Part shown: positions 8,261-37,205 of the stretch, piece by piece
How positions within the stretch are numbered: the first letter of the stretch is position 1
Layout of the letters: each line of letters starts with the position of its first letter
IMG/VR virus record: IMGVR_UViG_3300035162_001736
Location: 1 to 38,024 of that record
Origin: a virus
DNA: 38,024 nt
Strand: one strand, 5' to 3'
Notes under the pieces: model-generated
Database searches by the model: none
Told to the model about the DNA's origin: nothing
The model's input: the letters and a program-made list of their open reading frames with translations, nothing else
Program-made: the position numbers and the translations under genes

Positions 8261-11200
8261 TTAGCCGGCTAGACCCCGGTATGTGGAAAATCCTGCGCCT
8301 AGTTGCGCCAGCGGAGAAGGACTATATGTGGACCCAGTTGTCGATCCAGACGTTGATACGCGATTAGGCGTAATAGGCGCCATACCGCGCACTTGAGTGC
8401 TAAGCCAATCCATCTGCTGCTGAGGATAACGCTGCTGATCCAGAAATTCTTTTTCAGCGGCTGATAATTGATTCTGCAGCTGCATTTGTTCTGCTTGTCC
8501 AGCCGCTTCAAGAGCACTTAAATCTCTATAGTTAGCTTGCTGACCGGCAATTGCCATATCTCCCATGCTCTGCAATGCGCCAATTTGTCGATTGTAATCT
8601 TGTGCCTTAGCCTGCTGTACTTGCGAAGCCGCGTTAAGCCCCAACTGTTGTTGGCTTAGACCTGCATTACTTCGGCTCTGCGCTAGATTGCCCAGCTGAG
8701 ACATTTGCTGACCTGATAGCTGGCCGGTTGTTGAGCCCAAGCCAGCAAGCTGAGAAGCCTGCTGCCCTGTTAGCTGACCCATGTTCTGGCCTATCTGAGC
8801 CTGACGACTGGCGTCTTGACCCATCAACTGTCCTGCTGTAGACGCAGCCTGCATCTGGCGCGCTGCATCTGCATTGGTCATCTGACCTGCTACTCCTGCG
8901 GCCTGAAATTGTCGTGCGGCATCTTGACCAGTTAACTGTCCTGCTGTGCTTGCTAGCTGCGCCTGGCGCGCTGCGTCAGCATTAGTCAAAGACCCTAACT
9001 GACTAGCAATTTGAGCTTGTCTTGCCGCGTCAGCGTTAGTAAGGGCTCCTAGCTGAGTACCAGCCTGAATCTGTCTGGCTGCATCCTGTCCTGTAAGTTG
9101 TCCCAACTGGCTAGCAATTTGAGCTTGTCTTGCTGCATCCGCATTCGTAAGAGCTCCTAGTTGAGTACCAGCTTGAATCTGTCTGGCCGCATCCTGTCCA
9201 GTAAGTTGTCCCAACTGACTAGCAACTTGTGCTTGTCGAGCAGCATCTGCATTTGTAAGAGCTCCTAGTTGAGTGCCAGCCTGCAGCTGTCTTGCTGCGT
9301 CCTGACTTGTGAACTGGCCCATCTGGCTAGCAACTTGAGCTTGTCTTGCTGCGTCAGCGTTAGTAAGAGCTCCTAGCTGAGTCCCAACCTGAAGTTGTCT
9401 TGCCGCGTCTTGTCCAGTAAGTTGTCCCATTTGACTAGCAACTTGTGCTTTTCGGGCAGCATCTGTATTTGCAAGAGCTCCTAGTTGCGTACCAACCTGA
9501 AGTTGCCTGGCTGCATCTTGTCCAGTAAGTTGCCCCATTTGGCTAGCAACTTGTGCTTTTCGAGCAGCATCTGTATTTGCAAGAGCTCCTAGTTGCGTAC
9601 CAACCTGAAGTTGCCTGGCTGCATCTTGTCCAGTAAGTTGCCCCATTTGGCTAGCAACTTGTGCCTGTCTTGCTGCATCTGCATTCGTAAGCTGACCCGC
9701 TTGAGAAGCAGCTTCCATTTGACGGCTAGCATCTTGATTTGTTAGCTGACCCATAGTTGATGCAAGCTGCGCCTGTCTTGCTGCGTCAGCATTTGTAAGC
9801 TGACCTGCTTGAGAAGCAGCTTGCATTTGTCTTGCTGCGTCCTGACTTGTGAGCTGGCCCATTTGGCTGGCAACTTGAGCCTGTCTTGCTGCGTCTTGAC
9901 TTGTTAGCTGGCCTGCCTGTGCTCCTAGTTGAGAGTATTGTCCTGCTCCCTGTAATGTGCGACCTAAATCAGCACCAGAAATGCTGCCTACTGTTCCCGC
10001 AAGGCTAGCTTGACGTGCCTTGTCAGCTGCTGAGGCTTGCATAGCCTGAGCATAACCCTGCTGCATCATTGGAGCCTGCTGCCTTAGAACAGACTCTTGC
10101 GTGTCTCTTAGAGCCCTAGATCCGAATTCGCCCATATTTCTACTGCCGAACTGACCTGCTCTTATAAAAGAATCTGAGACCCCAGGAAGTAGATTCTCAG
10201 TCAGATTCCGAGCTCCTTGCTGCGCGATTGCATCCATGACATTCGTTTGATACGGATTCATGTACTGATCTATATTAGACACAGAAGACTGAGATGCTTG
10301 CTGTAAATAAGGGTTAGCGGCATTCAAAGCCTTGTCTGCTAACGCCTGGGCGGTAGTGTTTTGAGATTGAGTCATGTAAGGGCTAGCCGCGCTCATCCCG
10401 CTGGCCCCAGCCGCTTGCTGAAGAAGAGGATTGGCTGAATCAAAAGCACTCGCTGACACGCCGGCCTGCAAATAAGGATTGGCTGCATTCATGCCGCTAG
10501 CCGATCCTGCCGCTTGAATATACGGGCTAGCCGCATTGACGCCGCTTGCAGAAGTTCCGGCTTGCAGATAAGGATTGGCCGCTCCCATACCGCTTGCACT
10601 AGCAGCTTCTTGAAGCAAAGGATTAGCAACGTCAAAAGCATTTGCTTCTGCCGCTCTTTGAAGCATAGGGTTAGCTGCTTCCATACCGCTTGCACTAGCA
10701 GCTTCTTGAAGCAAAGGATTAGCAACGTCAAAAGCATTTGCTTCTGCCGCTCTTTGAAGCATGGGATTAGCTGCTTCCATACCGCTTGCACTAGCAGCTT
10801 CTTGAAGCAAGGGATTGGCAACGTCAAAAGCATTTGCCTCTGCTGCTCTTTGAAGCATAGGGTTAGCAGCATTCAGGCTGCTAGCCGCGCCCGCCTGCTG
10901 AAGCATAGGATTTGCAGCATCAAAAGCACTTGCCGCAGCTGCCTGCTGAATCATAGGATTTGCTGCATTCAAGCTGCTTGCTGCGCCCGCCTGCTGAAGC
11001 ATGGGATTAGCAGCATCAAAAGCACTTGCCGCAGCTCCCTGCTGAAGCATAGGATTTGCTGCATTAAATCCGCTTGCTGCGGACGCCTGCTGAAGCATAG
11101 GATTTGCAGCATTCAAGCCGCTAGCTGCAGCTCCTTGCTGAAGCATAGGATTTGCAGCATTCATGCCGCTAGCTGCGGCCGCTTGCTGAAGCATAGGATT

Positions 11201-11854
11201 AGCAGCATTCATGCCGCTAGCTGCGTTTGCAGCGCCCATGTAACCGCTAGCGGCATCCATAGCATTAGCAGCTGAACCGGCTTGTAAATAAGGATTAACG
11301 GCATCCAATGAGCTTGCAGAAGCGCCAGATTGCAGATAAGGATTAGCTGCGTCAGATGCGCTCATTCCTGCCGCTGCAGTTAAGTAGGGAGACGCTGAGC
11401 CGACAATATTATTTGCATTTGTTTGAGCCTGAGTTAGCAAAGGCTGTGCAGAGCCTAAAATATCCATGTTGCCAGCGCTCGTAAATAAATCCTGTCCGGC
11501 ATTTAAGTTTTTACCAGCCAAAGAAGTTGCCGCTGGATTCAGGTATGAGCCTTGAGCAGTAGATAAGGTGGCAGAAGTTCCGTTAGCAGACTGGGCCTCC
11601 ATAGCGGCCTGAGCTTTTTCTAAATTTGTTTTGTAAGCTCCCTGAGCATTTGCAATTCCGGTATAAGCGTCTTGCTGATTCTGAGAAAGACCAGCAACAG
11701 TCGGCAGCGAATAGTCTTCATAAGGCTTGTTGGCTATGTTTGTGGCCCAATTTACCTGATTAAAGATAGCATCCTGCATCCACTTCGGCGTTTCCGTTGT
11801 GCTCGCGCTATAAGTAGTAGCGGTTTGTGGCGTTCCTTGAAATATGCTACCCAT
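8261..11854 (-). CDS. Giant dual-repeat virion protein, putative ejection or tape-measure-like
   Basis: This 1197-aa protein has four parts. The N-terminal domain (residues 1-167) includes ETPKWMQDAIFNQVNWATN and resembles a family of uncharacterised marine-phage structural proteins. Residues 168-487 are 20 tandem copies of a 16-residue unit (NAANPMLQQAAAASGM type). A non-repeat spacer (488-647) follows. Residues 648-1061 are 23 copies of an 18-residue unit (GQLTNADAARQAQVASQM type). The C-terminal domain contains QQRYPQQQMDWLS. It is Ala/Gln/Ser-rich with no Trp or Cys in the repeats. Eighteen residues equal five alpha-helical turns, so the second block could form a long helix with a straight stripe. 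The start and the upstream gene's stop overlap as TAATG. Function is inferred from position only. Confidence 0.65.
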   Translation of the reverse strand: MGSIFQGTPQTATTYSASTTETPKWMQDAIFNQVNWATNIANKPYEDYSLPTVAGLSQNQQDAYTGIANAQGAYKTNLEKAQAAMEAQSANGTSATLSTAQGSYLNPAATSLAGKNLNAGQDLFTSAGNMDILGSAQPLLTQAQTNANNIVGSASPYLTAAAGMSASDAANPYLQSGASASSLDAVNPYLQAGSAANAMDAASGYMGAANAASGMNAANPMLQQAAAASGMNAANPMLQQGAAASGLNAANPMLQQASAASGFNAANPMLQQGAAASAFDAANPMLQQAGAASSLNAANPMIQQAAAASAFDAANPMLQQAGAASSLNAANPMLQRAAEANAFDVANPLLQEAASASGMEAANPMLQRAAEANAFDVANPLLQEAASASGMEAANPMLQRAAEANAFDVANPLLQEAASASGMGAANPYLQAGTSASGVNAASPYIQAAGSASGMNAANPYLQAGVSASAFDSANPLLQQAAGASGMSAASPYMTQSQNTTAQALADKALNAANPYLQQASQSSVSNIDQYMNPYQTNVMDAIAQQGARNLTENLLPGVSDSFIRAGQFGSRNMGEFGSRALRDTQESVLRQQAPMMQQGYAQAMQASAADKARQASLAGTVGSISGADLGRTLQGAGQYSQLGAQAGQLTSQDAARQAQVASQMGQLTSQDAARQMQAASQAGQLTNADAARQAQLASTMGQLTNQDASRQMEAASQAGQLTNADAARQAQVASQMGQLTGQDAARQLQVGTQLGALANTDAARKAQVASQMGQLTGQDAARQLQVGTQLGALANTDAARKAQVASQMGQLTGQDAARQLQVGTQLGALTNADAARQAQVASQMGQFTSQDAARQLQAGTQLGALTNADAARQAQVASQLGQLTGQDAARQIQAGTQLGALTNADAARQAQIASQLGQLTGQDAARQIQAGTQLGALTNADAARQAQIASQLGSLTNADAARQAQLASTAGQLTGQDAARQFQAAGVAGQMTNADAARQMQAASTAGQLMGQDASRQAQIGQNMGQLTGQQASQLAGLGSTTGQLSGQQMSQLGNLAQSRSNAGLSQQQLGLNAASQVQQAKAQDYNRQIGALQSMGDMAIAGQQANYRDLSALEAAGQAEQMQLQNQLSAAEKEFLDQQRYPQQQMDWLSTQVRGMAPITPNRVSTSGSTTGSTYSPSPLAQLGAGFSTYRGLAG
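8672..9913 (-). repeat. 23 tandem 54-bp repeats (18-residue units)
   Basis: 1242 bp, exactly 23 x 54, encode units of the form G-[QA]-L-T-x-x-D-A-A-R-[QK]-x-Q-x-[AG]-[ST]-Q-x. Even and odd units often alternate (GQLTGQDAARQ versus GALxNxDAAR), giving a 108-bp higher-order repeat, nearly identical between about 9400 and 9660. The last three units are degenerate. Confidence 0.93.
10394..11353 (-). repeat. 20 tandem 48-bp repeats (16-residue units)
   Basis: 960 bp, exactly 20 x 48, encode units like [ND]AANPMLQQAAAASGM. Each carries an Asn-Pro helix breaker followed by a short Ala-rich helix. Units 11-16 (10586-10873) form three almost identical 96-bp copies, a recent higher-order duplication. 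A 21st unit is decayed. Confidence 0.93.
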
Positions 11855-14168: not shown

Positions 14169-14404
14169 AGTGTTGTCTGAACAAATCTCTCTGCCCACTC
14201 TCTCCACTGGCTAATGTCATAAGAATAAGGATCGGGAAAGTCTTCTACTAAATTTGTAGCCCGGTTGTATTGTGTTGCCCAGTCTTGCCACTTTTCCGGG
14301 TCATTCAAAGGCTGATAAACACCAAACGCATCAAAATCTATAATCAGGCAGTCTGCCCAGTCTTGTAATTCTATTCCTACAGGTAGCGTTACGCTTAGGC
14401 TCAT
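14165..14404 (-). CDS. Small conserved-looking hypothetical protein
   Basis: This 79-aa acidic protein is rich in Trp and Asp (QDWADCLIIDFD, EKWQDWATQYN, QWREWAERF), with repeated W-x-x-W-A type motifs suggesting a small helical domain. It overlaps the gp10-like gene start region by four bases and the GNAT start by four, so all three are translationally coupled. Position right after the tail-hub gene suggests a small tail or assembly role. I do not recognise a characterised family. Confidence 0.6.
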   Translation of the reverse strand: MSLSVTLPVGIELQDWADCLIIDFDAFGVYQPLNDPEKWQDWATQYNRATNLVEDFPDPYSYDISQWREWAERFVQTTL

Positions 14405-16587
14405 CCTAAATCCGTCCCATCGCCACTATCAAAATGACCGATAATTTGACCCATTTGGTAATCTCCATACAGCTCATTCGATTCAAATCTTACTCTTAAT
14501 TCTCTGCGCTGCTCTTTGAGCATTACTATCTGCTCATAAGGCTGTACAGCTGACTCTGGAAAAGTAAAAGTAGTGCTGATAACTTCTGGCGCCCTGGCGT
14601 TAGCCCTGCCTGTTACATTGACGGTCATTGGGCCGCTTTGTACAAAATCTGGCTCAATGGTTGTGCAGCGCAGATATCTGTTGGTTCCGCTAACCAAAGT
14701 AGAAAGATCAGCAGTTTCAAAGAAAGACTTTATTGGCCTGACAGTAGATCCATCATATTCGTCTGATTTGAATTCATGCCGCCAGACTTTGTAGCCAGAA
14801 CCTCTGGCATCTGTATTGACTTGACCGCCCATGCCGCTGTGAATGGTGCAATAGTAATATAAAGTAGGCGTTCCAGTCCCGACAACGATTTGCGTGTACG
14901 CTCCTGGGTTGCCCGGCACGCCAGCAACCGTGACTCCAGCTGTGTACTCTGCACCTCCTCCATGCGTTCCATCTAGCGTTGTCGAAAGACGCAAAGGATG
15001 ACCTGCATTATTCCCTGCCGACTGATCAAAACGGTAGGTGTTACCTTCAACAAAAGTCAGAGTAGGTTGCGCTCCTCCGCTCATATTGTATTTGTTCCCA
15101 GAACCCGCGTTAACAACAGTAACAGCAAGAATTGACAAAGGATCTACTGCAAAAAGAGAGGGCTCGACACCTGTTAAGATTGGCGCCGCAAAAGAATTAT
15201 TAAAATGACCCGCTGAGCGGCCATAGTTGGGAAGTTCGGTATCATACCAAGTGTTTTCTCGGACGTTATAAACTACTGCATGCGTACACTCAGTTGCTGT
15301 TCCGCGAGGATAACACCACCATATCTCGCCATACTTTGGCACTTGAAAGCAGAATGTTTTGCTTTGCTCGTTGACGTTGATTCCGTCAAAGAAGTAATTA
15401 AGATTCATGCTGTTTGGCACTTCGCGCACTACGCCGTTGAACATGTAGAAGCGATCTACTCCGGCCCAGTAAAATACGCCATCATAATCTACAACGCAGA
15501 ACTGCGACATTATTGAAGTGCCGGTGGAAACTATGTCAAACTGAAAGACAGTCGCTCCACCCGTAAATGTTGCTCGAATAACTGCGTCAAACGCCCAGAA
15601 GAGCCCTGCAGGAGCAGTTCCAGAGCCTGCTCGCATTGGCAGACCTTTGATTATCTTTTGCCCCCAGACGCGAGCTAGGCCGCTTCCTGATCCAGTTAGA
15701 TCTGTAGGCTCTCCGGCTACGGACCAACCAATAATGCCATCAGTACCGTAATAAAATAAGTAAGGATGAAGACTAACAATCCCGCCTGTGACATTAGCAT
15801 TAGGCGGTAGAGGTATGCTTCTTAAATCGCCCGTACCTAAAACTTCTCCAAAAAATATTTGACCGTCTTGGTCGTTGCATACGCAAGTACCATTGGGCGC
15901 TACCGAGGCAATTAAATAATTTTTATTGCTAGAAGAGCCATACTGAACATCAAACATCCAGTAGTTAAAAGGATTGGCCAATAGCGCATCAGAGCCGTAG
16001 TCAAAGTTGACTAGAGTTGATGTCAGCGTAGTCAAAGTGTTGGTAATTATAAATCCGTTAACCTGGTCGCCTGTGGTAACTGACGTGATAGTTATAACAG
16101 CGCCTGCCGCAGCAGCAGTGTAATTAGGTGTTGAGGTAAATGCAGTAATATTTGAGGCAACGTCAGTAGCTGTCTGGTCTATAGTGGTATTAAAAGCCAC
16201 TGCACCGGACATAATGTCAATACCATCAACGGCAATCATATTTACTGAGCCGCTAGCACCCGCCAAAGTGACAGTTCCATACGCGCCAGTAGCAGCCGGA
16301 GTTCTGTCAGTTATTATTGAGCTATTTCCAGTTGCGTCAAGAGTGAATCGCTCTACTTTATTAGCCCCGCCAGAGTGACAGTAAACGTAAAGCATCTGCG
16401 TAAAAGTGGAGAAGCCACGGCTTATTTCTTGCAAGAATTTTTGAGTGGTTTTATAGCCTCCAATTTTTCTAGGCAACGCTCTTTGCCAGCGAACCCACTG
16501 ACCGTCAGTGTAAAAATCGCCTTCATACTTAGTTCCATCCCTTTTAATGCCGGGATTAGACTTTAAGACTGCAGTCTGAATAGGCAT
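14401..16587 (-). CDS. P22 gp10-like tail hub / DNA stabilisation protein with inserted domains
   Basis: This 728-aa protein opens with a segment common in marine podovirus-like phages (SNPGIKRDGTKYEGDFYTDG). The body has beta-propeller-like repeats (about 197-480), with motifs such as YLIASVAPNGTCVCN and DGVFYWAGVDRFYMFNG. The end QRRELRVRFESNELYGDYQM is typical of gp10-type packaged-DNA stabilisation or hub proteins. Two modules interrupt it: residues of about 101-195 (a beta-rich VDGIDIMSGAV / YTAAAAGAVITI domain) and about 484-595. The second resembles a cupredoxin with His530, Cys580, His583 and Met586. It probably closes the portal channel and joins fibers. The assignment rests on pattern, not alignment. 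Confidence 0.6.
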   Translation of the reverse strand: MPIQTAVLKSNPGIKRDGTKYEGDFYTDGQWVRWQRALPRKIGGYKTTQKFLQEISRGFSTFTQMLYVYCHSGGANKVERFTLDATGNSSIITDRTPAATGAYGTVTLAGASGSVNMIAVDGIDIMSGAVAFNTTIDQTATDVASNITAFTSTPNYTAAAAGAVITITSVTTGDQVNGFIITNTLTTLTSTLVNFDYGSDALLANPFNYWMFDVQYGSSSNKNYLIASVAPNGTCVCNDQDGQIFFGEVLGTGDLRSIPLPPNANVTGGIVSLHPYLFYYGTDGIIGWSVAGEPTDLTGSGSGLARVWGQKIIKGLPMRAGSGTAPAGLFWAFDAVIRATFTGGATVFQFDIVSTGTSIMSQFCVVDYDGVFYWAGVDRFYMFNGVVREVPNSMNLNYFFDGINVNEQSKTFCFQVPKYGEIWWCYPRGTATECTHAVVYNVRENTWYDTELPNYGRSAGHFNNSFAAPILTGVEPSLFAVDPLSILAVTVVNAGSGNKYNMSGGAQPTLTFVEGNTYRFDQSAGNNAGHPLRLSTTLDGTHGGGAEYTAGVTVAGVPGNPGAYTQIVVGTGTPTLYYYCTIHSGMGGQVNTDARGSGYKVWRHEFKSDEYDGSTVRPIKSFFETADLSTLVSGTNRYLRCTTIEPDFVQSGPMTVNVTGRANARAPEVISTTFTFPESAVQPYEQIVMLKEQRRELRVRFESNELYGDYQMGQIIGHFDSGDGTDLG

Positions 16588-17789
16588 TAGGTGAACGTGC
16601 CTCCATTTACGTTACCCGCCTGAGCCACTCCCAAAGCTGTCCAGGCAGCTGCTTGATTTGCAGCCTCAAACAGAGCTATACCCGTGGACGTGCCGCCTAA
16701 ATTTATCAGTGCTGCGCCTGCTGATGTAGCGCCAGTGCCGCCATTAGCAATAGAAATAGGAAGACCAATAGTTGCGGTGTCTGCATCTAATATTTCACTT
16801 CCGTCACAGTAAAATATGCCGCGCTCATTGGTGGTGAGCGTGACGCCTGTGGTTCCAGATACTTTTACCGTGAAGGTAAAGCTGCCCGTTGTTCGATTAT
16901 CAATCCAATATTGCTGCACAGTAGCAGGAATAATGATGTTACGAGCGCCTGTTAAAATACCTGTGAATCGATAAGCCACTCGATTGAGCTGAGCTCCTGA
17001 AAGAGTAAAGTCTCCAGATCCAGGAACGTCAATTACCGTATAATCAAAGGCGAAAGTAGCTGCTTGACCGAATCCAATAGTGTAAAAGTTAGACCCATCA
17101 GACGCAATTATTGACGACTCGCCTGGCTGAAAGGCCAGTGGAGAAGTTCCATCAATGGTCGTAGAGCCTGGAGGAGTAACTGAAATTTGACCAGAACCGG
17201 AATTACGCAGATACATAAACCAATTGTTGCCAACAGCCGTAGGATCTGGAAGCGTTAAAACTCCACCTGCACCGGTCCAGTTGTACATTCTGGCACGATC
17301 AGTGTTTCCAGCTGTGTAGCTTGAGTTGAAAGCCGTGATCGGCACTGACTGAGACAGCAAAGTACCAACAGCAACAATACCAGTGCCGGCTAATGCCGAA
17401 GCATTGGCGCTGGATGTTGTGGCCCCGTATTGCAGAATCTGCCAAACGCCATTGGTTGTTGTGTTATCCGTTAAATAGACCTGCCAAATCTGACCAGCCG
17501 CAATTGTGCCAACTTGAACGCCGCCAGCATTTTTGACAGTAAATATGTCAGAGCCCTTGTTATTAAAAAGAATCGTGTTACCTGTTCCGCTTTTCTTGGC
17601 GTCAGGCAAAATAATGCTAAAACCCGCACCCGATGGAGTAACATCCATAATTCTTGTGGCAAGGTTTACATTTGTAGAAGTTTCTTCTGGCCAGCTTAAT
17701 GTAATATCTGCGCTCAGAGCGACAGAGCTATAGCTAATCTCGCTTGGATAAATATTGGCGCCGCCAAACACATCTGTATAACTCGGCAT
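16587..17789 (-). CDS. Tail fiber / virion structural protein
   Basis: This 400-aa beta-rich protein is high in Thr, Gly, Ser and Ala, with few charges. The middle has repeated beta segments where a value is read out after a Gly turn (GVLTLPDPTAVGNNWFMYLRN, NIIIPATVQQYWIDNRT). The C-terminus contains IANGGTGATSAGAALINLG, the Phage_fiber_2-type tail fiber repeat, and ends NVNGGTFT, an ending echoed by the 72-aa protein at 24490 (ISGGTF). It sits between the adaptor and hub genes and overlaps the hub start by one base. It probably forms part of the fiber or its attachment. Confidence 0.65.
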   Translation of the reverse strand: MPSYTDVFGGANIYPSEISYSSVALSADITLSWPEETSTNVNLATRIMDVTPSGAGFSIILPDAKKSGTGNTILFNNKGSDIFTVKNAGGVQVGTIAAGQIWQVYLTDNTTTNGVWQILQYGATTSSANASALAGTGIVAVGTLLSQSVPITAFNSSYTAGNTDRARMYNWTGAGGVLTLPDPTAVGNNWFMYLRNSGSGQISVTPPGSTTIDGTSPLAFQPGESSIIASDGSNFYTIGFGQAATFAFDYTVIDVPGSGDFTLSGAQLNRVAYRFTGILTGARNIIIPATVQQYWIDNRTTGSFTFTVKVSGTTGVTLTTNERGIFYCDGSEILDADTATIGLPISIANGGTGATSAGAALINLGGTSTGIALFEAANQAAAWTALGVAQAGNVNGGTFT

Positions 17790-18421
17790 TATGCTTCACT
17801 CCTTTGTGCGGATCTGTCCATTATCTTAGATAGATCTTCGCCATTTAATGCTTGCGCCGCCCTATCATACATCTCTCGCCACATTGGCACGCGCTCGTCA
17901 CTCTTTAAGAATGGAGTAGCCTCCAAAAGAGCGGCATACAATAGGACATCTGGCGCGTATTCTGTGAGCCAATTGCTTTGAAAGTCTTCGCCCAAAAGAG
18001 CGGGCTGTTCGTAATACAATATCTCTAAAGTGCTTGCAGCATTAGGAGTAGGGGCTATCAACCAGTGTTGATAGTCATAATCCGCATAAAACTGAGGAGC
18101 CGCAGTTTCTGATTCATCTGGCCAGTAGTTGCGACAATACTCGTAAGACCGGGCAAATATTGAAGACCCGCTGACATTCATCGAGGCGGTGTCTCTCCAT
18201 CGATCAGGCTTTAAATAAGTTGAAACACCGATTGATAGCGGAAGATTAACGGCTCGGATAAAGCCTTCTATTTTAAGCTCACGAGCAATACGGCGCTCTC
18301 CCAGGGTAATTAACCGTGGAAGTTGATCAAAGACAATTTGATCGCTGGCCTCAGTAAATCCTCGCTCTAAATAACGACGAAGATCAACAAGCAAGCTGTC
18401 GTATGTCATCGTATAGCTCAT
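17789..18421 (-). CDS. Head-tail adaptor, SU10-adaptor type
   Basis: This 210-aa protein is dominated by helices and fits the phage adaptor family that binds under the portal. Features are an early helix pair (residues 4-60, including FDQLPRLITLGERRIAREL), then PLSIGVSTYLKPDRWRDTASM. The conserved-looking run YWPDESETAAPQFYADYDY is followed by HWLIAPTPN and LEILYYEQPALL. The C-terminal helices contain LLYAALLEATPFLKSDERV. Adaptors of this kind form a dodecameric ring between portal and tail hub. The gene immediately precedes the fiber and hub genes in the transcript. Confidence 0.75.
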   Translation of the reverse strand: MSYTMTYDSLLVDLRRYLERGFTEASDQIVFDQLPRLITLGERRIARELKIEGFIRAVNLPLSIGVSTYLKPDRWRDTASMNVSGSSIFARSYEYCRNYWPDESETAAPQFYADYDYQHWLIAPTPNAASTLEILYYEQPALLGEDFQSNWLTEYAPDVLLYAALLEATPFLKSDERVPMWREMYDRAAQALNGEDLSKIMDRSAQRSEA

Positions 18422-18422
18422 T

Positions 18423-18668
18423 TTACGATTTCCCAGTGATTTTTAGGTAAGACCCAGCAAGCAGTGCGCCCAGAAACAAATATGTCAAAGTCTGCACAAC
18501 GGCGCGGCCAGCAGTACGTTTAGCCATCCTCCACGCATCAAGGACCGACCTGAGTTCTCTCAAGTCGGGATTAGCATTTTTGTCTGACAAACCGAGATCG
18601 TGCAGAGCTTTCGCGGCAGCAGCAGAAGCAGCTTTTTCAACCATTGCTTCCATCTCTTCTTCGGTCAT
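18423..18668 (-). CDS. DUF6127-like small membrane protein
   Basis: This 81-aa protein has an acidic N-terminal helix (TEEEMEAMVEKAASAAAAKAL), the segment LGLSDKNANPDLRELRSVLDAW followed by a basic stretch (RMAKRTAGR), and one hydrophobic span near residues 58-76. This order fits the DUF6127 pattern seen in phage structural operons. Function is unknown; a role at the membrane during assembly or entry is possible. It overlaps the upstream gene by one base and ends one base before the adaptor gene. Confidence 0.65.
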   Translation of the reverse strand: MTEEEMEAMVEKAASAAAAKALHDLGLSDKNANPDLRELRSVLDAWRMAKRTAGRAVVQTLTYLFLGALLAGSYLKITGKS

Positions 18669-18973
18669 TAGGCAGCATTCAGCGCGTCAATTTGCGCTTG
18701 CAGTCTAGCTATCTCGGCAACTTTTGGGTCAACCCAATCAGCTACTTCAGTCCACGTTGTGCCATCAAAAGTGTAACGGTTTCCCTGCCAGTCAGCCGGA
18801 GCTGTCACGCCAGTGTGCAGAGTCGCATTGCCAGAGTGCATATCGCCGATGTAGAAATCAGGGTCAGCGTCATCGCCTACCGTGATTCTGTCAGCACCCA
18901 TTGTGACGTTTTTCGCGTCATCAAAGATGTAAGGCGAACGCCCTGTGTCGTTAAAAGTTAATGTCTTACTCAT
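18668..18973 (-). CDS. Small virion-associated hypothetical protein
   Basis: This 101-aa protein has an N-terminal beta-rich half (DDAKNVTMGADRITVGDDAD) and a DWQGNRYTFDGTTWTEV segment. A C-terminal helix (EIARLQAQIDALNAA) could form a short coiled coil for trimerisation. Such C-terminal helices appear on small tail proteins and fiber chaperones. Its place directly downstream of the three propeller genes suggests it serves the fiber, possibly as a cap or assembly factor. Confidence 0.55.
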   Translation of the reverse strand: MSKTLTFNDTGRSPYIFDDAKNVTMGADRITVGDDADPDFYIGDMHSGNATLHTGVTAPADWQGNRYTFDGTTWTEVADWVDPKVAEIARLQAQIDALNAA

Positions 18974-20439
18974 TATGAATCTCCGTTCAAAAGTAGTGAT
19001 GTTGTCGATATTGCTAGTCCTGCGTTGACGCTGCTGCTCACAGTGGTTACGGTTCCATCGTCCTGCACATAGTATTTAGAGCCAGTGGTTAAGCTGCTTA
19101 ATCCTGTAGCCGTACCGCCCTGCACAACAACTGTACCCGTAGCCGAACTGGATATGGCTGCGTCTGCTATGCCTACGAAGTCGGCTGAGTTGGTTGAAGT
19201 TCCCGGCGGAGTGTATACAGTAGCTTGCCCAGAAATATTCCCTCTATTGTATGCAGTAACTACTTTGTTTTCAGTGGAACTGTACGCAGACCCTATATCA
19301 GGAGAAGGCCCACCAGAATTAAGAATAAGAGCTGACCCAAAAGTTATGCTGCTGCCAGAAACAACGCCCGAAATAATACGTGCGTAAAAAGAATTAGATG
19401 CACCCCCTTGGTATGATACAACAATATTACCACCAGAAGAGTCATACGTTGTTGAGACATAGCCACTTATAGCCGCGGTTTCAAAAACAACCGCCGTACC
19501 GAAACTAAGGCTTGTACCGCTTACCGTGCCTACTACGGCTGTTCCGTAGTCGCTATTAGAGTTATCTCTATAGGCAACGACTACCCTTTCGTTAGCAGAA
19601 TCATAAGCTATGGAGTAAAAAGTACGGCTTGAAGCACTAGTATAAGTAGCTTCAGTACCAAAACTAATACTTGTACCAGACACAGTTCCGACTCTTGCTT
19701 TTCCTCCTGAAGTACCCTGCCCTTTGTATGAAACAATCGTTTTTTCATTAGCAGAATCATAAGTGGAGGTTACGTAGGAAAGGGCAGAAGAATAAAAAGT
19801 AACAGCACTACCAAAAGAAATGCTTGTTCCGCTAACTGTACCGACTATCGCTTTGCCAAGATCACCTGCGTCAGCATCTGCAAAGAAAACTACTACTTTC
19901 CCAGAAGCCGTATCGAACACTGGAGCGGGGTTAAAAGTTGCGCTTGAAGTAAATGTAACAACAGACCCAAATGAAATTGAAGTGCCTGAAACAGTTCCAA
20001 TTTTTGCGCTGCCTGCGTAATTACTAGCGTCGTTACTGTAAATAACTACTACTTTCCCCGCAACAGAGTCAAAAGTTGCGCCGTTTTGGTTTGTTGCACC
20101 GCTGTTATAGACGACAGGAGTGCCAAAACTAATCGATCCTCCTGAAATAGTTCCAACTGACGCAGTCCCATAAGAGCTATTTCCAGAATCTCTGTAGGTT
20201 ACAATTATTTTGTTGTTTGTAGAATCATAAGTTACCGAGTTTTCATTGGGAAGTGAGTATGAAGCATCAAAAGTACCTGCCACGCCTACTGCTTGAGGTA
20301 TACTAGTTTCAGCAACAGCACTAACCGTCCCAGCACTGTTAAGAATGACAGGCGCTTTGCTGGTAATGTTTGCCGTGGCTACCGCTTCAATGGTCTTACC
20401 AGAAGCACCCGCAGGAAGTAAGTCAGAAAGATTGCTCAC
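18973..20439 (-). CDS. Propeller-type tail fiber/receptor-binding paralogue 3
   Basis: This 488-aa protein starts with GTG overlapping the previous stop (GTGA). The N-terminal anchor SNLSDLLPAGASGK and VILNSAGTV is shared with the two upstream paralogues. Residues of about 60-430 hold seven repeats of about 52 residues with the pattern YDS-x3-K-x-VVxY, then VGTVSGTSISFG, like blades of a seven-bladed beta-propeller. The C-terminal segment SKYYVQDDGTVTTV is also shared. Blades here are the most regular of the three. Propellers with variable loops suit glycan or surface binding, so a receptor-binding role is an inference. Confidence 0.65.
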   Translation of the reverse strand: MSNLSDLLPAGASGKTIEAVATANITSKAPVILNSAGTVSAVAETSIPQAVGVAGTFDASYSLPNENSVTYDSTNNKIIVTYRDSGNSSYGTASVGTISGGSISFGTPVVYNSGATNQNGATFDSVAGKVVVIYSNDASNYAGSAKIGTVSGTSISFGSVVTFTSSATFNPAPVFDTASGKVVVFFADADAGDLGKAIVGTVSGTSISFGSAVTFYSSALSYVTSTYDSANEKTIVSYKGQGTSGGKARVGTVSGTSISFGTEATYTSASSRTFYSIAYDSANERVVVAYRDNSNSDYGTAVVGTVSGTSLSFGTAVVFETAAISGYVSTTYDSSGGNIVVSYQGGASNSFYARIISGVVSGSSITFGSALILNSGGPSPDIGSAYSSTENKVVTAYNRGNISGQATVYTPPGTSTNSADFVGIADAAISSSATGTVVVQGGTATGLSSLTTGSKYYVQDDGTVTTVSSSVNAGLAISTTSLLLNGDS

Positions 20440-21974
20440 GATTGGTACTCCAGATTAATTGATGTCGCCGACATGGCGCGGCCTATCTTGACCGCAGAAC
20501 CTGTAGAAACGGTACTTATAGTTCCGTCTGCCTGCGCGTAGTAGTCGCTGCCCGGAGTCAATGAAGTCAGCCCCGTAGCCGCTATACCACCCTTGATTGT
20601 TACGTTGCCGCTGGCCGCGCTTGATATAGCTGCATCGGAAATGCCAATGAAGTTTGTTGAGGTGAGGTTGGTTGAGGTATATCCTTGCTGACTAGCTACC
20701 GAACTGCAGCCATCATAGTTTTTCTCTCTCCAAGCCGTGACAAAACTTCCTGCATCGTTAGGGTTCATAGCCGCCACTAAATAATTCGTGCTATTTACTC
20801 CTTCTGTCGTAATTTGAACAGGAGTTCCCGCTGTAATTGTTGTACCGCTAACACTTAAAGCAGCAGCAAAAGGACGATCACTTGTAGCATCATTTCTGTA
20901 AACGATTTGAAAAGCTCTTCCTACTCCAGATGGAGCCATAGCCCAGAAATCAGTAGAAGCTGTAGAGTTAAACTGTACTTTAGTTCCAAAAGTAAAAACG
21001 GTTCCAGATAAGGTTGCAGCACAAGCTGCTCCATAGTTACTGCTGCCAGCGTCTCTAAAAGCAATTATTAAATTGTCAGCATTAACCGAATCAAACACGC
21101 AAGCTGAGTATGGAGTAGTCTCAAAAGCTGCTCCTGTGGCGTTGAAAGTTTGAGCAGTGCCTCCGGTAATTGTAGTCCCTGAGATAGTTCCACACACCGC
21201 TATTCCGGCATAAGGACTTGCATAATTGTTAGCGACTACAGCAAATTTACCTGTAGTGCTTGGGTCAAAAGCAAGTCCTATACGCCAATCGTTTACCGCT
21301 GTACCATAAAGCTCTACCTCAGTTTGCAAGGTAACTGTAGTTCCACTATAGGTTCCCAATGTACCAAACAGCTTATTGCTATCCGCAGCTTTTTGCCAAG
21401 CTAATACAAAAGTGCTAGAGGTAAAATCAAACTCTAATGCTCCATACGAATTAGCCGTTGAAAAATTAACTCCTGAACCAAAACTTAAAGTCGTTCCGCT
21501 GAGAGTACCCACTTTTATAAAAGACCCAGAACTACCTGCAAAATCATTGTACGCTATTGCAAATACCCCTGTAGCAGCGGGATCAGCCGCAATACTAGGA
21601 TGAAGAACTGTACTAGAATTAAATACCGTTTTAGTGCCATAAGTTAATGTAGAACCAGAAATAGACCCCACTATGTAAGAAGCGTAACTACTAACTTTAG
21701 CGTCTGCAAAAACCATAACGAATTTGTCTGATGAAACATCAAAAGCTATATCTATGTAATTGGCTGTGCTGTAGGGCGAACTAACTGGTGCTGCAAACCA
21801 AACTGTATCTGACCCTTCAGGAATAGACTCACTAACGCTAGTTTCAGATATAGGTGTAACCGTCCCCGCCGAGTTAAGAATCACAGGCTTACCCGCCGCG
21901 CTTATTGCGCCATCAGCAACAAAGCTAACTTGTTTGCCCGCGCCTGCAGGGAATAGATCGGAAAGATTTGTCAT
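20436..21974 (-). CDS. Propeller-type tail fiber/receptor-binding paralogue 2
   Basis: This 512-aa protein has the shared N-terminal anchor (TNLSDLFPAGAGKQ, FVADGAIS, KPVILNSAGTV). About seven repeat units of 50-55 residues follow (for example AFDVSSDKFVMVFAD, then VGSISGSTLTYG). The C-terminal segment SDYYAQADGTISTV is shared. Blade sequences have diverged from both neighbours while the ends are kept, as expected if the ends attach to a common partner and the middle binds variable targets. It overlaps both neighbouring genes by four bases. Confidence 0.65.
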   Translation of the reverse strand: MTNLSDLFPAGAGKQVSFVADGAISAAGKPVILNSAGTVTPISETSVSESIPEGSDTVWFAAPVSSPYSTANYIDIAFDVSSDKFVMVFADAKVSSYASYIVGSISGSTLTYGTKTVFNSSTVLHPSIAADPAATGVFAIAYNDFAGSSGSFIKVGTLSGTTLSFGSGVNFSTANSYGALEFDFTSSTFVLAWQKAADSNKLFGTLGTYSGTTVTLQTEVELYGTAVNDWRIGLAFDPSTTGKFAVVANNYASPYAGIAVCGTISGTTITGGTAQTFNATGAAFETTPYSACVFDSVNADNLIIAFRDAGSSNYGAACAATLSGTVFTFGTKVQFNSTASTDFWAMAPSGVGRAFQIVYRNDATSDRPFAAALSVSGTTITAGTPVQITTEGVNSTNYLVAAMNPNDAGSFVTAWREKNYDGCSSVASQQGYTSTNLTSTNFIGISDAAISSAASGNVTIKGGIAATGLTSLTPGSDYYAQADGTISTVSTGSAVKIGRAMSATSINLEYQS

Positions 21975-23473
21975 CCGGTGTAGTCCTTAATGTTGATTTG
22001 GGTGGCTGTTATGGCTTGACCAATAAGCTGCGCGGGGGAGGCACTGGCTGTGGTTATCGTGCCATCTTCTTGCACGTAGTAGTCAGAGCCAATTGTAAGG
22101 CTTGTCTGAGCTTCGTTCCTGCTACCCCATGTGTTTATCGTTCCGGTAGCAGTATCCAGAATAGCTCCTGAAGCTATGCCCAAGAGGTTGGTTGCGGTGA
22201 GGTTTGCATAATCCCCCGCCAGTGTCATAACATTAGCTACGGCTAAATCTGAACCCGTAGAAGCATAAGCAATAATATTTCTTTCTGCTGTGCTGTCGTA
22301 ATAAACAACAGGGTGACCAGAAAAAGCCCCAGAAAATGCTACCGTCGCGTCCCAAGCTATGGTTGATGCTCCAACCGCTCCAACATTGTAATAAAGTTTA
22401 TAATCACTATTTTTTTTATGTAACGTAACTACTCTATCCTTGGCGATATTATAAGAAGTTGAGAGAGCATCACCGTAAACGGTAGATGCGCTGGATATTA
22501 GAACGGTGGGTGTTGTCCATGTCAGTTGTCCCGGGTAACCCACGCTAGACCCGTTTGTTCCCAAAGTATAATAAACATAATTATCAGAACTATTCTGATA
22601 AGTCGCTACATATCTAGCAATGCTAGAGTCGTAAGCCAAGGTAACATTACTTTCAACAGTGGGCGAGAATGATAGAGAAACAGTAGCCATCGACCAAGCA
22701 CTAGCACTCAATGTAAATGTTTTACCAATTCCAAACTTATTAGCGCCCGAAGTGTATCTACTTGCTATCATAAACCCATCTGTACCGGTAATATTAACGA
22801 GCTGCGCTTGCCCGTTGAGAGTACTGTTTCCAGTATTGTCCAAAAGATCGGCAGTTATTGTGGTTCCCGAAACAGTCAACCTATAAACAAAAGCATAGTT
22901 ATAGCGATTTACCACACATACTGTGGCATTTCTTACGGAGCTATAAGCTAACGCTTGGGCGGTCATATAAGTAGCAGTCGAAAAAAGCGTAATTTCAGTC
23001 CCAAAAACGATTGTTTTTGTAGCCGCCGTTATTGTTCCGCATCGCGCATACTGATAACCACTGGCGTCAAGGTATGTCGCTATAATCTTCCCACCGCCAA
23101 TAGAACAAACAGAGGCAGGATTACTGGAATTAGAAGAGGCTTTAACTTGTACCGGAGTTCCCCATACCGTAGTACTGCCCGAAATAGCACCGATAACTAC
23201 ATGCCAGTAGTTGCTAACACCACCGTTACGATAAATTAAAACTTGAGTGTTGGTAGCTGCATCAAAACAGCCCCCAAGCATCTGTACTGAGTTGCCTCCA
23301 TTAAAGTCGGAATCTGCTCCTAGATTAGTAGATACAGTCTCGACGGCAACCTGCGCAGCCTTACCCGCCGCCGTCAGGATCACAGGCTTACCCGAGGTTA
23401 TCGCCCCGTCAGCAACAAAGTCGGTATTATTCTGACCGCCTCCTGCGGGGATCAGCTCGGAAAGATTGCTCAT
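21971..23473 (-). CDS. Propeller-type tail fiber/receptor-binding paralogue 1
   Basis: This 500-aa protein has the same plan as its two neighbours: anchor SNLSELIPAGGGQN and FVADGAITSGKPVILTAAG, then about seven diverged repeats (CFDAATNTQVLIYRN, VIGAISGSTTVWG; YYDSTAERNIIAYAS), and the C-terminal SDYYVQEDGTITTA. The units are longer and less regular than in the third paralogue. The first gene of the trio, it starts one base within the stop of the upstream fiber gene. A role in host recognition is inferred from the repeat plan and fiber context. Confidence 0.65.
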   Translation of the reverse strand: MSNLSELIPAGGGQNNTDFVADGAITSGKPVILTAAGKAAQVAVETVSTNLGADSDFNGGNSVQMLGGCFDAATNTQVLIYRNGGVSNYWHVVIGAISGSTTVWGTPVQVKASSNSSNPASVCSIGGGKIIATYLDASGYQYARCGTITAATKTIVFGTEITLFSTATYMTAQALAYSSVRNATVCVVNRYNYAFVYRLTVSGTTITADLLDNTGNSTLNGQAQLVNITGTDGFMIASRYTSGANKFGIGKTFTLSASAWSMATVSLSFSPTVESNVTLAYDSSIARYVATYQNSSDNYVYYTLGTNGSSVGYPGQLTWTTPTVLISSASTVYGDALSTSYNIAKDRVVTLHKKNSDYKLYYNVGAVGASTIAWDATVAFSGAFSGHPVVYYDSTAERNIIAYASTGSDLAVANVMTLAGDYANLTATNLLGIASGAILDTATGTINTWGSRNEAQTSLTIGSDYYVQEDGTITTASASPAQLIGQAITATQINIKDYTG

Positions 23474-24462
23474 TACACGCTCCAGCCAATAGTTCCGTTG
23501 ATGTAGGTTAGTACAATTTCAGCAAAATTCTTATCAAAAGTGAGGTCGGTTGCAGAGCTTGCGATGTTAGAGCCATTACGCGCTACGGTAAAACTGGTAG
23601 TTGCGGCTGCTCCGGTTCCATCTTTGACTGTTACTGTATCTCCGGCAGTCGGTGAAGCGGGCAGAGTAATAGTGATACTTCCAGCCGTAGCAATGATGTA
23701 GTCCCTGTTGATAGCCGTATATCCAACCCCTTTTAGCAGCGGAGTAATCGCACCAGAACCGCCGTTAGCAAACGGTAATACGCCTGTAACCCCCGTGGTT
23801 AGCGGAAGTCCTGTTGTATTGGTCAGCACACCGGACGCTGGAGTGCCGAGAGCAGGTGTAACCAGCGCAGGGCTTGTAGAAAGGACTACTGCCCCCGTAC
23901 CTGTAGAGGTAGTGACACCCGTACCGCCATTGGCAACAGCAAGAGTACCCGCAACCGTGATTGTTCCAGAGCCTGTAATCGGGCCTCCAGAAGTAGTAAG
24001 GCCCGTAGTTCCGCCAGATACCGCCACGCTTGTTACTGAGCCACCGGCATCACTTCTATATTCTAAGGCTGTACCGCCTGCGTTCATCGCAAGAACTTGA
24101 TTAGGCGCCCCAAGAGCAGAGAGGTTTGTTCCGCCGTTGGCAACAGGCAATATGCCTGTTATCTGTGAGGTTAAATCAACGCCTGTTAGCGCGCCACCCA
24201 AGACCAAGTTGCCAGTAGTAGTAACTGTACCTGTCAGGGAAATTCCGTTAACAGTGCCTGTACCGCCGACAGAGACAACTGTTCCCGTTGACCCTCCAGT
24301 AGAAGCAATCTCAGTGACCACTCCTCCTGAGTTTTTAAAGAACAATTTGCCGTCATTAGTGTTAATTGCAAGCTCGCCATCAGTCATATCTACAGCAGAA
24401 GGTACGGCTGCTGCTGTCGCAGTTCTATACAATTGAATCGGTGTAAATCCTGTTTCAGCCAT
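23473..24462 (-). CDS. Tail fiber protein with ANGGTG repeats
   Basis: This 329-aa protein begins AETGFTPIQLYRTATAAAVP, then GELAINTNDGKLFFKNSGG, a start common to phage fiber proteins. Four (L/I)xxANGG(T/S) motifs recur (PVANGGTNL, AVANGGTGV, PFANGGSGA), separated by Thr/Gly/Val-rich beta strands, as in trimeric fiber shafts. The C-terminal region (about 245-329) carries ITITLPASPTAGDTVTVKDG, typical of a beta-sandwich knob. A GGAGG site precedes its ATG. It lies directly upstream of the propeller trio and could be the shaft they attach to. Confidence 0.75.
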   Translation of the reverse strand: MAETGFTPIQLYRTATAAAVPSAVDMTDGELAINTNDGKLFFKNSGGVVTEIASTGGSTGTVVSVGGTGTVNGISLTGTVTTTGNLVLGGALTGVDLTSQITGILPVANGGTNLSALGAPNQVLAMNAGGTALEYRSDAGGSVTSVAVSGGTTGLTTSGGPITGSGTITVAGTLAVANGGTGVTTSTGTGAVVLSTSPALVTPALGTPASGVLTNTTGLPLTTGVTGVLPFANGGSGAITPLLKGVGYTAINRDYIIATAGSITITLPASPTAGDTVTVKDGTGAAATTSFTVARNGSNIASSATDLTFDKNFAEIVLTYINGTIGWSV

Positions 24463-29992: not shown

Positions 29993-30907
29993 TTATACGC
30001 CTGGTGTGCCGAACACGCCACGCGGATCTGTCCAACCAACTGTGTAACGCTCTGTCGCTTTATAGCGCATAGAGTCAGTTGCAAAGTCACCTTCCATAGA
30101 CTTCTCAAGACCGCGGCGCATGAGGAGCTTTAAGCCTTCAGGAGCGTCAGTCTGAACCCACCATGCGGTGGTAGAAGTAATACGAGAAAGGTTTGCTTGA
30201 CCATCTGCCAAAAGCCCCATGGACTTAATAGCGTTGATGTCGTTGTCAGCGGTCCCGCTTCGTAGAACTGATTTTAACAAAGTTTCCGCTTGGAAAACAT
30301 TGCTTGGACCAGTAACGATTTGAGTAGGAGTCAATCGGATGCGCTTACCGTTGTTATCAACAGCGTTACGAATCTGAATAAGCATCTGCTCAAGAGAGGT
30401 CTGAGAAAGTGCAGCAGCCGCATTAAGCACGTTGCTGAAAGTCCCTTGCACAATCGGGTGAGCATTGCTGCTCAAGGCAACACCGTCACCGCCTGTAAAG
30501 GCTGCGTTAAACGCACGGTTCATGATGTTGGCCGTCAGGGTCTCTTTTGTTTCAATCAAAGATTGCGCCAAGTGCTTAGCGTAAGTTTGACCGATACGAA
30601 TGTGATCGCCATCTTCAACCAATACTTTGGTCAATGCAAAAGCAAGGCCATAGACGTGGTAAAGATAACGCTGCACAAACAAGATGCCGCCTGATTGATA
30701 GGTAACAGCCATGCCGTCTGGAAGCTCAGGAGCCGCGCCAAAACCATAAAGAACGGGTTCTTCATGATAGTTACGTGGAATACCTTTTTGCTCACGGAAG
30801 ACCTTCTTCCACTCATCAGCTCGCTGCTCGTAAACTCCGTCAAATACTTCGTTGAGTATTGGCTCAACTATCGACCGAAAGTCTGTACTACGCATTGGAG
30901 TAGCCAT
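29993..30907 (-). CDS. Major capsid protein
   Basis: This 304-aa protein is the predicted shell subunit with an HK97-like fold. It follows the scaffold and virion-associated genes and is followed by a strong terminator, both typical of the capsid locus. The N-terminus (MRSTDFRSIVEPILNEVFDG) leads to RIGQTYAKHLAQSLIETKET near residue 105, and GGDGVALSSNAHPIVQGTFSN, a loop common in phage capsid proteins. The conserved beta-hinge-like segment PTQIVTGPSNVFQAE comes next. The C-terminus (MRYKATERYTVGWTDPRGVFG) is typical of MCPs. It has a strong AGGAGG-type ribosome site. No protease gene is seen, so no cleavage is implied. Confidence 0.85.
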   Translation of the reverse strand: MATPMRSTDFRSIVEPILNEVFDGVYEQRADEWKKVFREQKGIPRNYHEEPVLYGFGAAPELPDGMAVTYQSGGILFVQRYLYHVYGLAFALTKVLVEDGDHIRIGQTYAKHLAQSLIETKETLTANIMNRAFNAAFTGGDGVALSSNAHPIVQGTFSNVLNAAAALSQTSLEQMLIQIRNAVDNNGKRIRLTPTQIVTGPSNVFQAETLLKSVLRSGTADNDINAIKSMGLLADGQANLSRITSTTAWWVQTDAPEGLKLLMRRGLEKSMEGDFATDSMRYKATERYTVGWTDPRGVFGTPGV

Positions 30908-30920
30908 TTTTTAGACCTCC

Positions 30921-31514
30921 TTATACTGAGTTAACAGCGGCTTTGTATTGATGCTCGTTTATTCTAACCGAGACCTTTACAAATGCATCTGTAATCAAAT
31001 TATTGGGACCACCCGCGATACCTGTAATCTGGTACTGACCAGAGGTAGTTTGGATAGCAGTAAGAGACGTGGCAGATAGCCCAGTGGCTGTTAAGCCGCC
31101 TGGAGCAGTAGGAACCCAGTCGCATTCCTCGCCAACTGCTGTTTGAACCGTAGTTCCAGCTGCTGGATTAGGATATTCAACATCAAATATAGTTTCCGGG
31201 TCGTCATAGACGAAGGCCACGATGTTTGTTGCTGTTGCACTCGCAGGCCAAAATGGCGAGAGAGTAGGCTTGCCTAGCGCATCATCATATTGAACGCCGG
31301 CAAAGATACCAAGATTGCTGATACCATCGACCGTGCCAGTACGAGTGCCGTCAGAAGTTGCGAGTTGAATAGTACCTGCGTCAACCAGCTTTACGGGGTC
31401 ACCTGAGAATACGTTCTGGGCGTATCCAGATGCAATAGTGTAGGCTTTCGCCGTTATTCTACCACTGTTGTGATAGGAAGCGCGGAAGCCAAATGCTTCA
31501 GTAGTCGCTGACAT
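30921..31514 (-). CDS. Virion structural protein next to capsid, possible decoration
   Basis: This 197-aa protein begins FGFRASYHNSGRITAKAYTIASGYA, then GDPVKLVDAGTIQLAT, GISNLGIFAGVQYDD and PFWPASATATNIVAFVYDDPE. This beta-sandwich pattern recurs in marine phages immediately upstream of the major capsid gene. It is probably a capsid-associated or decoration protein. The gene ends 13 bases before the capsid start, which has its own ribosome site. The precise function is not known. Confidence 0.6.
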   Translation of the reverse strand: MSATTEAFGFRASYHNSGRITAKAYTIASGYAQNVFSGDPVKLVDAGTIQLATSDGTRTGTVDGISNLGIFAGVQYDDALGKPTLSPFWPASATATNIVAFVYDDPETIFDVEYPNPAAGTTVQTAVGEECDWVPTAPGGLTATGLSATSLTAIQTTSGQYQITGIAGGPNNLITDAFVKVSVRINEHQYKAAVNSV

Positions 31515-33928: not shown

Positions 33929-34610
33929 TTTTGTCTTCCTCTGCATAGAGATTATTAAAAACTTGATTAACGTCGAGAGTATAATCCAAATCAGATTTAC
34001 TGTGATGCGTGTGCTGAGATGGGCGAAACTCTGGCGCCCCTTCTCCTCGCTCAAACCAAGCAGGAGCTGTGACCCTAACGCGATTATTAGGTAGAGCTAT
34101 AATATTTCCTGTCCACTCGCCTGCATCCAGAAGCTCTAGCACATGAGACTGCTTATGCTGTGCCGGGTCATCCGCTATTTCTGAATCGGTGTAATCGACT
34201 GTAAAATAATACTTAGCCGGATAAAATTCGCCGTCTATCTTGGCTAGCCAAGGAGAAGGAGAGCATCTATCCAACTTATAAACACTGTGAGTCCGAGAAG
34301 CACAGTCCCAAGGTTGAGCGTCATGTACGGCCATAGGTTTGGGCCATTCTTGTAACGGTTCGTCTGCAACCAAAGCAGTTATAGGCATTCTGGCCCACAT
34401 TGCTCCTCCATGAACATTAGGTTCATTATCATCATTGTAAGTTTCAGCTCCAGTAAATATAACTTGAAAGCTCAGACACCGTTCTGGCATCGTAGTAACC
34501 GCAACGACCATGGCGTGAATAAACTCGCCGTGAAACTTTTCATGATTGTGCGTGTATTCTTTTCTAACCCAGCATTTAAAATACGGTATGTTGCTCTGTA
34601 GAAATGCCAC
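33909..34610 (-). CDS. Conserved virion-associated protein of unknown function
   Basis: This 233-aa protein begins AFLQSNIPYFKCWVRKEYTH and contains LSFQVIFTGAE, HGGAMWARMPITALVADEP, AQPWDCASRTHSVYKLDRCS, PSPWLAKIDGEFYPAKYYFTVDYTD and WTGNIIALPNNRVRVTAPAW, in that order. I associate this arrangement with a protein conserved next to the portal in marine podovirus-like phages; its role is not known. It lies just downstream of the portal (starts overlap by one base) and its C-terminus overlaps the KGG gene by 20 bases. Several Cys and His residues could bind metal. Confidence 0.65.
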   Translation of the reverse strand: MAFLQSNIPYFKCWVRKEYTHNHEKFHGEFIHAMVVAVTTMPERCLSFQVIFTGAETYNDDNEPNVHGGAMWARMPITALVADEPLQEWPKPMAVHDAQPWDCASRTHSVYKLDRCSPSPWLAKIDGEFYPAKYYFTVDYTDSEIADDPAQHKQSHVLELLDAGEWTGNIIALPNNRVRVTAPAWFERGEGAPEFRPSQHTHHSKSDLDYTLDVNQVFNNLYAEEDKNEQHED

Positions 34611-37204: not shown

Positions 37205-37205
37205 G

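Follow-up and report, generated by a model that had tools for sequence, protein, structure and literature searches.

According to two reports (PMC8432352, PMC11414711), Ackermannviridae phages carry a branched complex of several receptor-binding tailspikes (TSP1-4). The position of every tailspike is set by a conserved attachment part of its own, and receptor-binding modules occur on different TSP types. The attachment parts are N-terminal (XD/TD, Gp10-like), the modules are C-terminal, and swaps are reported for some TSPs. Module exchange between position-specific tailspikes is reported for Kuttervirus (PMC8432352), and tsp genes of phage S117 were exchanged experimentally (PMC11414711). Here we analyzed a linear record of 38,024 bases from a bacterial virus of marine type, probably a fragment (IMG/VR record IMGVR_UViG_3300035162_001736; hereafter the window), in which three adjacent genes, P3, P2 and P1, belong to a family that likewise combines position-specific attachment domains with exchangeable modules. 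The principle resembles that of the Ackermannviridae tailspikes, but the parts differ: in the window family, the attachment domain (the anchor) is split over both ends of each protein (the carrier), the modules (the heads) occupy one or two loops as inserts, and exchange is near random. We did not find the C-terminal beta-helix module of the Ackermannviridae type in the AlphaFold2 models, which show propellers between both termini. We propose, with moderate confidence, that the three genes encode head-carrying subunits of the host-recognition apparatus of a short-tailed phage, with the anchors fixed at a fiber tip and the heads exchanged.

Other described systems share single features with this family. 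Three consecutive, co-oriented paralogous genes, as found in 48 of the 60 arrays described below, also occur as tail genes in the virophage DSLV2, whose products are reported to form a 1:1:1 heterotrimer; those proteins are T4 gp37-like with the collar domain PF07484 (PMC12724248), whereas full-length P1-P3 gave no Pfam match, PF07484 included, and no PHROG match at E ≤ 1. In contrast to the cement proteins of family PF09956 (Phage_cement_2), the termini here flank a propeller and the genes lie in a fiber region. The bacterial lectins of the PLL/PHL and BP39L types have the seven-bladed propeller fold in common with the P1 model (Z 29.3-32.7, root-mean-square deviation [rmsd] 2.6-3.0, 312-322 residues), although identity is 8-15% and there is no sequence-family match. 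A distant homologue, the hypothetical protein AYP28108 of Lentibacter phage ICBM2 (30.6% identity over 56% of P1), is encoded among tail genes with chaperones; as annotated, that locus is not a three-slot array of the window type. A description of the family was not found in the open-access literature (subscription papers were not covered), and, as far as this search reached, the combination of a split cement-like socket, loop-inserted heads and near-random traffic between slots has not been described.

Three carriers and their relatives

The carriers and their parts are as follows.

21971..23473, minus strand: slot 1 carrier P3, first transcribed, 500-aa open reading frame (AlphaFold2 model; signature GGGQN ... 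INIKD)
23348..23473, minus strand: P3 N-anchor, amino acids 1-42, first part of the split cement-like domain (hidden Markov model [HMM] and alignment)
22193..23347, minus strand: P3 head, diverged beta-propeller of ~385 aa (AlphaFold2; top Foldseek rows PLL2/PHL lectins)
21974..22192, minus strand: P3 C-anchor, second part of the split cement-like domain (PF09956 match)
20436..21974, minus strand: slot 2 carrier P2, 512-aa open reading frame (signature AGxGKQVSF ... INLEYQS)
20658..21848, minus strand: P2 head, ~397 aa
18973..20439, minus strand: slot 3 carrier P1, GTG start, 488-aa open reading frame (AlphaFold2 model; signature ...LLLNGDS)
19186..20313, minus strand: P1 head, seven-bladed propeller of ~376 aa (repeat spacing, seven blades, AlphaFold2, VIA)
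18976..19185, minus strand: P1 C-anchor (PF09956 match)

An earlier note on this DNA, made from the sequence alone, had described three tandem paralogues with common ends, and these adjacent open reading frames bear it out. Across the three carriers, the N-termini read SNLSDLLPAG, TNLSDLFPAG and SNLSELIPAG and the C-terminal segments YYVQDDGT, YYAQADGT and YYVQEDGT; consecutive genes share 4 nt (ATGA at P3/P2 and GTGA at P2/P1). The note had also assigned seven propeller-like repeats to each carrier. This held for P1, in which the repeat motif is spaced by 52, 52, 51, 53 and 54 residues and an iterated blade HMM seeded from P1 detected seven blades. The same HMM detected six blades in P2 and five in P3, so the sevenfold repeat is plain in the sequence only for P1.

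Relatives were collected from IMG/VR, with membership judged by sequence only. We found at least 220 loci (numbered with the prefix L) besides the window; three scans kept the best 80 of 253, 261 and 537 relatives, and four others returned all relatives found. A search with just the conserved start gave 280 matches in viral contigs (253 of them to relatives) and four in a cellular collection of 84,980 species (one of them to a relative). From 74 dereplicated enclosed loci, we removed those at contig ends (L001, L012, L042, L080, L120 and L160) and those with another N-terminus (L038, L190, L193, L194, L200, L203, L204 and L212), leaving 60 fairly bounded arrays: 48 with three genes, ten with two and two with one. 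A related group with another N-terminus (L016, L019, L020, L022 and L025) was kept outside these counts; it lacks the SNLS start and has up to four propeller genes, some separated by a gap of ~250 nt.

The three-gene arrays are compact. Their 96 gene junctions comprise 86 overlaps of 4 nt, 8 overlaps of 7 nt and 2 separations of 402 nt, the last leaving room for an extra gene. A fiber gene with the same C-terminal end (IGW..) precedes slot 1 in all 48 arrays, and a small gene follows slot 3 in 46 (37 with a stricter first pattern).

Slot-specific anchors and exchanged heads

When each anchor of the 48 arrays was compared with those of the other arrays, the closest one occupied the same slot in 138/144 cases for the N-anchor, 143/144 for the C tail and 142/144 for both ends together; the closest anchors of P3, P2 and P1 were all slot 1, all slot 2 and all slot 3, respectively. 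Among 29 representative arrays thinned to <85% mean anchor identity, the value was 85/87. The nearest head of these representatives, by contrast, lay in the same slot in 42/105 cases, compared with 34.9 ± 5.2 after shuffling (522 of 5000 shuffles reached the observed count), and a smaller test on 35 arrays gave 50/137 (shuffled 45.6 ± 6.2). The trees gave the same picture, with 4 slot changes in 85 rows for anchors (shuffled mean 40.9, minimum 35) and 40 in 82 rows for heads (shuffled mean 38.8). Taken together, the slot-specific ends indicate three attachment points with exchangeable heads, not the single attachment point that the earlier note had assumed.

Binning array pairs by anchor similarity gave a same-slot head share of 0.26-0.41 in every bin below 0.95; the share was 1.00 only in the ≥0.95 bin (12 comparisons, near-identical arrays). 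The median identity of same-slot heads was 34-35% in the 0.85-0.95 bins. In a mirror-tree analysis of 20 arrays, the anchors, the fiber end and the small gene diverged together, whereas the heads mostly did not. The slot 1 carriers of L015 and L064, which have glycine-rich heads, were excluded from the anchor tree and the mirror-tree set.

The anchors keep their order, while heads come and go and change places, both from slot to slot and from phage to phage. Slot 1 of the window and slot 1 of L112 have nearly identical anchors (98% at the N end, 96% and 95% at the C end) and heads that are 28% identical; middles thus diverge far faster than ends, as the note had expected. The P2 head is most similar to the slot 3 head of L167 (51%), compared with 33% for the slot 2 head of that locus. 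A common head with 97% amino acid identity is present in slot 3 of L090 and slot 2 of L156, and the same slots of these two loci have only their anchors in common. DNA identity between the two copies climbs within the N-anchor and ends just past the start of the C-anchor; the same border pattern surrounds a 93% identical head in slot 3 of L049 and slot 1 of L102. Copies also occur within arrays: all three heads of L006 are 79-81% identical, as are two heads of L002 (79%). The swapping suggested in the note is borne out by near-identical heads in different slots. The direct repeats at the gene ends are short (29-51 nt, 64-83% identical) and represent coding sequence of the common anchors. In both transfers, the borders are found where anchor and head meet rather than at whole-gene end repeats.

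Ordinary tandem duplication followed by faster drift of the middles, with no exchange of heads, would fit identities within the window, where paralogues are 51-60% identical at their N ends, 43-59% at their C ends and 27-31% in their middles. The disagreement between head and anchor histories and the near-identical heads in different slots already contradict this explanation, to which we give almost no credence.

In phage receptor-binding proteins, the virion-fitting part and the host-pressured part are usually confounded; this family keeps them separate. The slot-locked anchors provide fixed sequence marks for collecting heads from metagenomes; the collected heads, probably binders of glycans, would amount to an inventory of exchangeable modules from uncultured phages, with a turnover rate that is measurable against anchor divergence.

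A split cement-like anchor and its propeller heads

Both termini of the carrier form one small domain related to phage cement proteins (PF09956, formerly DUF2190). This relation became visible only when we scanned headless relatives. Six carriers that naturally lack a head (115-124 aa) are found in slot 1 (L045, L060 and L219), in slot 2 (L154 and L160) and as the last gene of the two-gene array L054. Against PF09956, L219 scored 27.4 bits (Pfam gathering cut-off, 24 bits), L060, L154 and L160 scored just below the cut-off, and L045 and L054 matched weakly; the headless carriers align to ~85-90 of the 103 profile positions. The window anchors with their heads removed scored 22.1, 15.3 and 20.8 bits, and the in situ matches in P3 (22001-22273, E 5e-4, 15.7 bits) and P1 (19003-19185, E 0.008, 11.9 bits) were likewise below the cut-off. 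Overall, 11 of 13 anchors matched PF09956 at E ≤ 1, and weak matches to PHROG head-decoration families were also obtained. A PDB sequence search with the anchor profile returned ribosomal L15 and PCNA rows, which we took as chance, and a weak neck-fiber row (8keg, E 0.21). A putative decoration protein encoded beside the capsid gene (30921-31514) was considered as a relative of the anchor and rejected, as it gave no match to it.

One or two loops of the anchor domain carry an inserted head. In many carriers, an additional insert, mostly a further propeller, lies between the two parts of the C-anchor; inserts at this position account for 46 of 185 heads (slot 1, 11; slot 2, 8; slot 3, 27). At this second site, carriers of L059 (4457-6709), L067 (9756-12020), L087 (2002-4281) and L101 (4109-6373) have a different repeat (e.g., GSKMYVCGDTGDDxNQY), apparently from another family of propellers; its copies in slot 3 of L059 and slot 2 of L067 are 95% identical. 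In the slot 1 carriers of L015 (4918-6141), L064 (1376-2494) and L172 (6350-7462), a glycine-rich end, reading ..RIIWGPNRAFPSTNTG in L015 and L064, takes the place of the propeller. An extra gene of ~137 aa, perhaps encoding its own assembly factor, follows this carrier in L015.

AlphaFold2, run on P1 and P3 as single chains with a 29-row alignment, produced a propeller for P1 (predicted local distance difference test [pLDDT] 88.7, predicted template modeling score [pTM] 0.80) and, less certainly, for P3 (pLDDT 77.8, pTM 0.78), in line with the duplicated propeller heads on conserved ends that the note had suspected. Both models resemble PLL/BP39L lectins. By VIA, the best match of P1 was BP39L (Z 32.7, rmsd 2.8, 320 aligned residues), with PLL lectins at ~30; the top Foldseek rows for P3 were the lectins PLL2 and PHL, with template modeling scores (TM) by target of 0.77 and 0.74. 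Searching PDB sequences with P1 yielded no lectin and nothing above chance level, and no C1q-type domain was detected in a test that lacked a working control.

Sialidases also appeared among the top Foldseek rows of P1 and P3, as would be expected if the heads were glycan-cutting enzymes rather than binders. We consider this improbable: the top sialidase rows had TM by query length of ~0.4-0.46 and 6-13% identity, and lectins ranked higher by VIA for P1 and headed the Foldseek list for P3.

Across 2462 distinct blade sequences, entropy was highest along positions 5-12, which lead into the first strand (2.65-3.78 bits); positions 25, 27 and 31 in the next loop were variable too, and the SGTSISFG strand was the most constant part (0.7-1.6 bits). 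Read without coordinates, this pattern may correspond to one variable face.

Gene neighborhood and placement on the virion

The virion genes of the window are encoded on the minus strand and include the following.

34610-37282, minus strand: portal, related to Caulobacter phages RW/KcrB and Roseobacter phages CRP-901/902
29993-30907, minus strand: capsid gene
23473..24462, minus strand: fiber gene directly upstream of P3, 1-nt overlap, C-terminal end IGW..
18668..18973, minus strand: small gene downstream of P1, 101 aa, resembling the small post-slot-3 gene in position and motif
17789..18421, minus strand: SU10-type adaptor protein of the tail (PF24175, E 2.8e-25)

The cassette runs from the fiber gene (24462-23473) through P3, P2 and P1 to the small gene (18973-18668), with overlaps of 1 or 4 nt, and the adaptor gene places it in the tail gene region. 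The small gene may encode an assembly factor; genes annotated 'tail assembly chaperone' occupy the equivalent position in phage ICBM2.

The ordered slot-specific ends, the coupled translation, the constant fiber gene and the persistence of headless subunits suggest that the carriers require one another and hold set positions, for which the tip of the upstream-encoded fiber is the simplest candidate. There, the three anchors would occupy non-equivalent, adjacent places, and the carriers would be produced in step through translational coupling. The propellers, lectin-like in the models, may bind surface glycans of the host. Recombination at the anchor/head borders would allow a lineage to replace any of up to six heads with assembly undisturbed. 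In its fullest form, which we offer tentatively, the fiber tip would be an ordered hetero-assembly of three cement-fold sockets with two loops each, displaying up to six lectin heads that are reshuffled faster than the sockets change by a few percent. This raises the structural question of whether phage fibers can end in ordered hetero-assemblies.

The slot-specific N-termini would suit separate docks equally well. The three genes could thus form three homotrimeric fiber tips, each with its own dock and with no mixed complex; according to PMC9509320, the long and short fibers of SU10 are trimers of one protein each, and the existence of two-gene arrays also agrees with this arrangement. We regard it as rather unlikely, though a serious competitor, as a single fiber gene with a conserved end lies directly upstream in 48/48 arrays and headless carriers are retained in slots 1 and 2 though they display nothing, which fits a subunit needed by its neighbors.

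The cement-like domain and the weak head-decoration matches bring in another site, the capsid, where the lectins displayed by the carriers would help the virion cling loosely to cells or particles and would not serve specific docking. This is unlikely in our judgment: the genes lie behind a fiber gene, among the SU10 adaptor and tail genes and ~6 kb from the capsid gene, the ICBM2 homologue has tail neighbors and chaperones, and PF09956-like folds may be reused in tails, as the neck-fiber row hints. A tail site is favored, though not proved, because of the gene position, the presence of SU10 adaptors in 13/16 sampled records and the tail neighbors of the ICBM2 homologue.

Several points weigh against the proposed explanation. 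The cement-like anchor could indicate the capsid rather than the tail. The mirror-tree did not favor neighboring pairs (N1-N3, 0.69, was as high as C2-N3, 0.67), so that co-divergence neither singles out neighboring anchors nor gives their order in a complex. Three subunits are not a requirement, as ten of the 60 arrays comprise two genes; in those, the second gene has a slot-2-like N-anchor in 8/10 and a slot-3-like tail in 6/10 (4 ties), as if slots 2 and 3 were fused or not yet split. Full-set heads keep a small slot excess (78/185, shuffled 61.8 ± 7.3, reached in 80/5000 shuffles) that is stronger at ≥80% identity (24/34), as is expected from recent common descent. Non-lectin propellers scored nearly as high as lectins for P1 by VIA (YncE 31.8; integrins and WD40 proteins ~29), which makes the lectin reading weak. 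Finally, the support is computational, from sequences and two single-chain models rather than a complex.

Other genes of the window were noted in passing. A DUF6127 protein (18423-18668; PF19622, E 2.9e-22) is encoded between the cassette and the adaptor gene. The 1197-aa protein at 8261-11854, which contains two kinds of repeat in long arrays (AANPMLQQA.. and QLTxxDAARQxQ..), matched no PHROG family and gave no convincing Pfam hit, and the 840-aa virion-region protein at 5726-8248, with a run of NDNTGG repeats, had no PHROG match. The product of 33909-34610 matches PHROG 3704, labeled ferredoxin (E 5e-29), an odd neighbor for a portal gene. The protein encoded at 14401-16587 mostly matches a virion structural PHROG, and its residues ~492-595, which match tail-fiber PHROGs 30742 and 693 as well as PHROG 27200, look like another inserted module.

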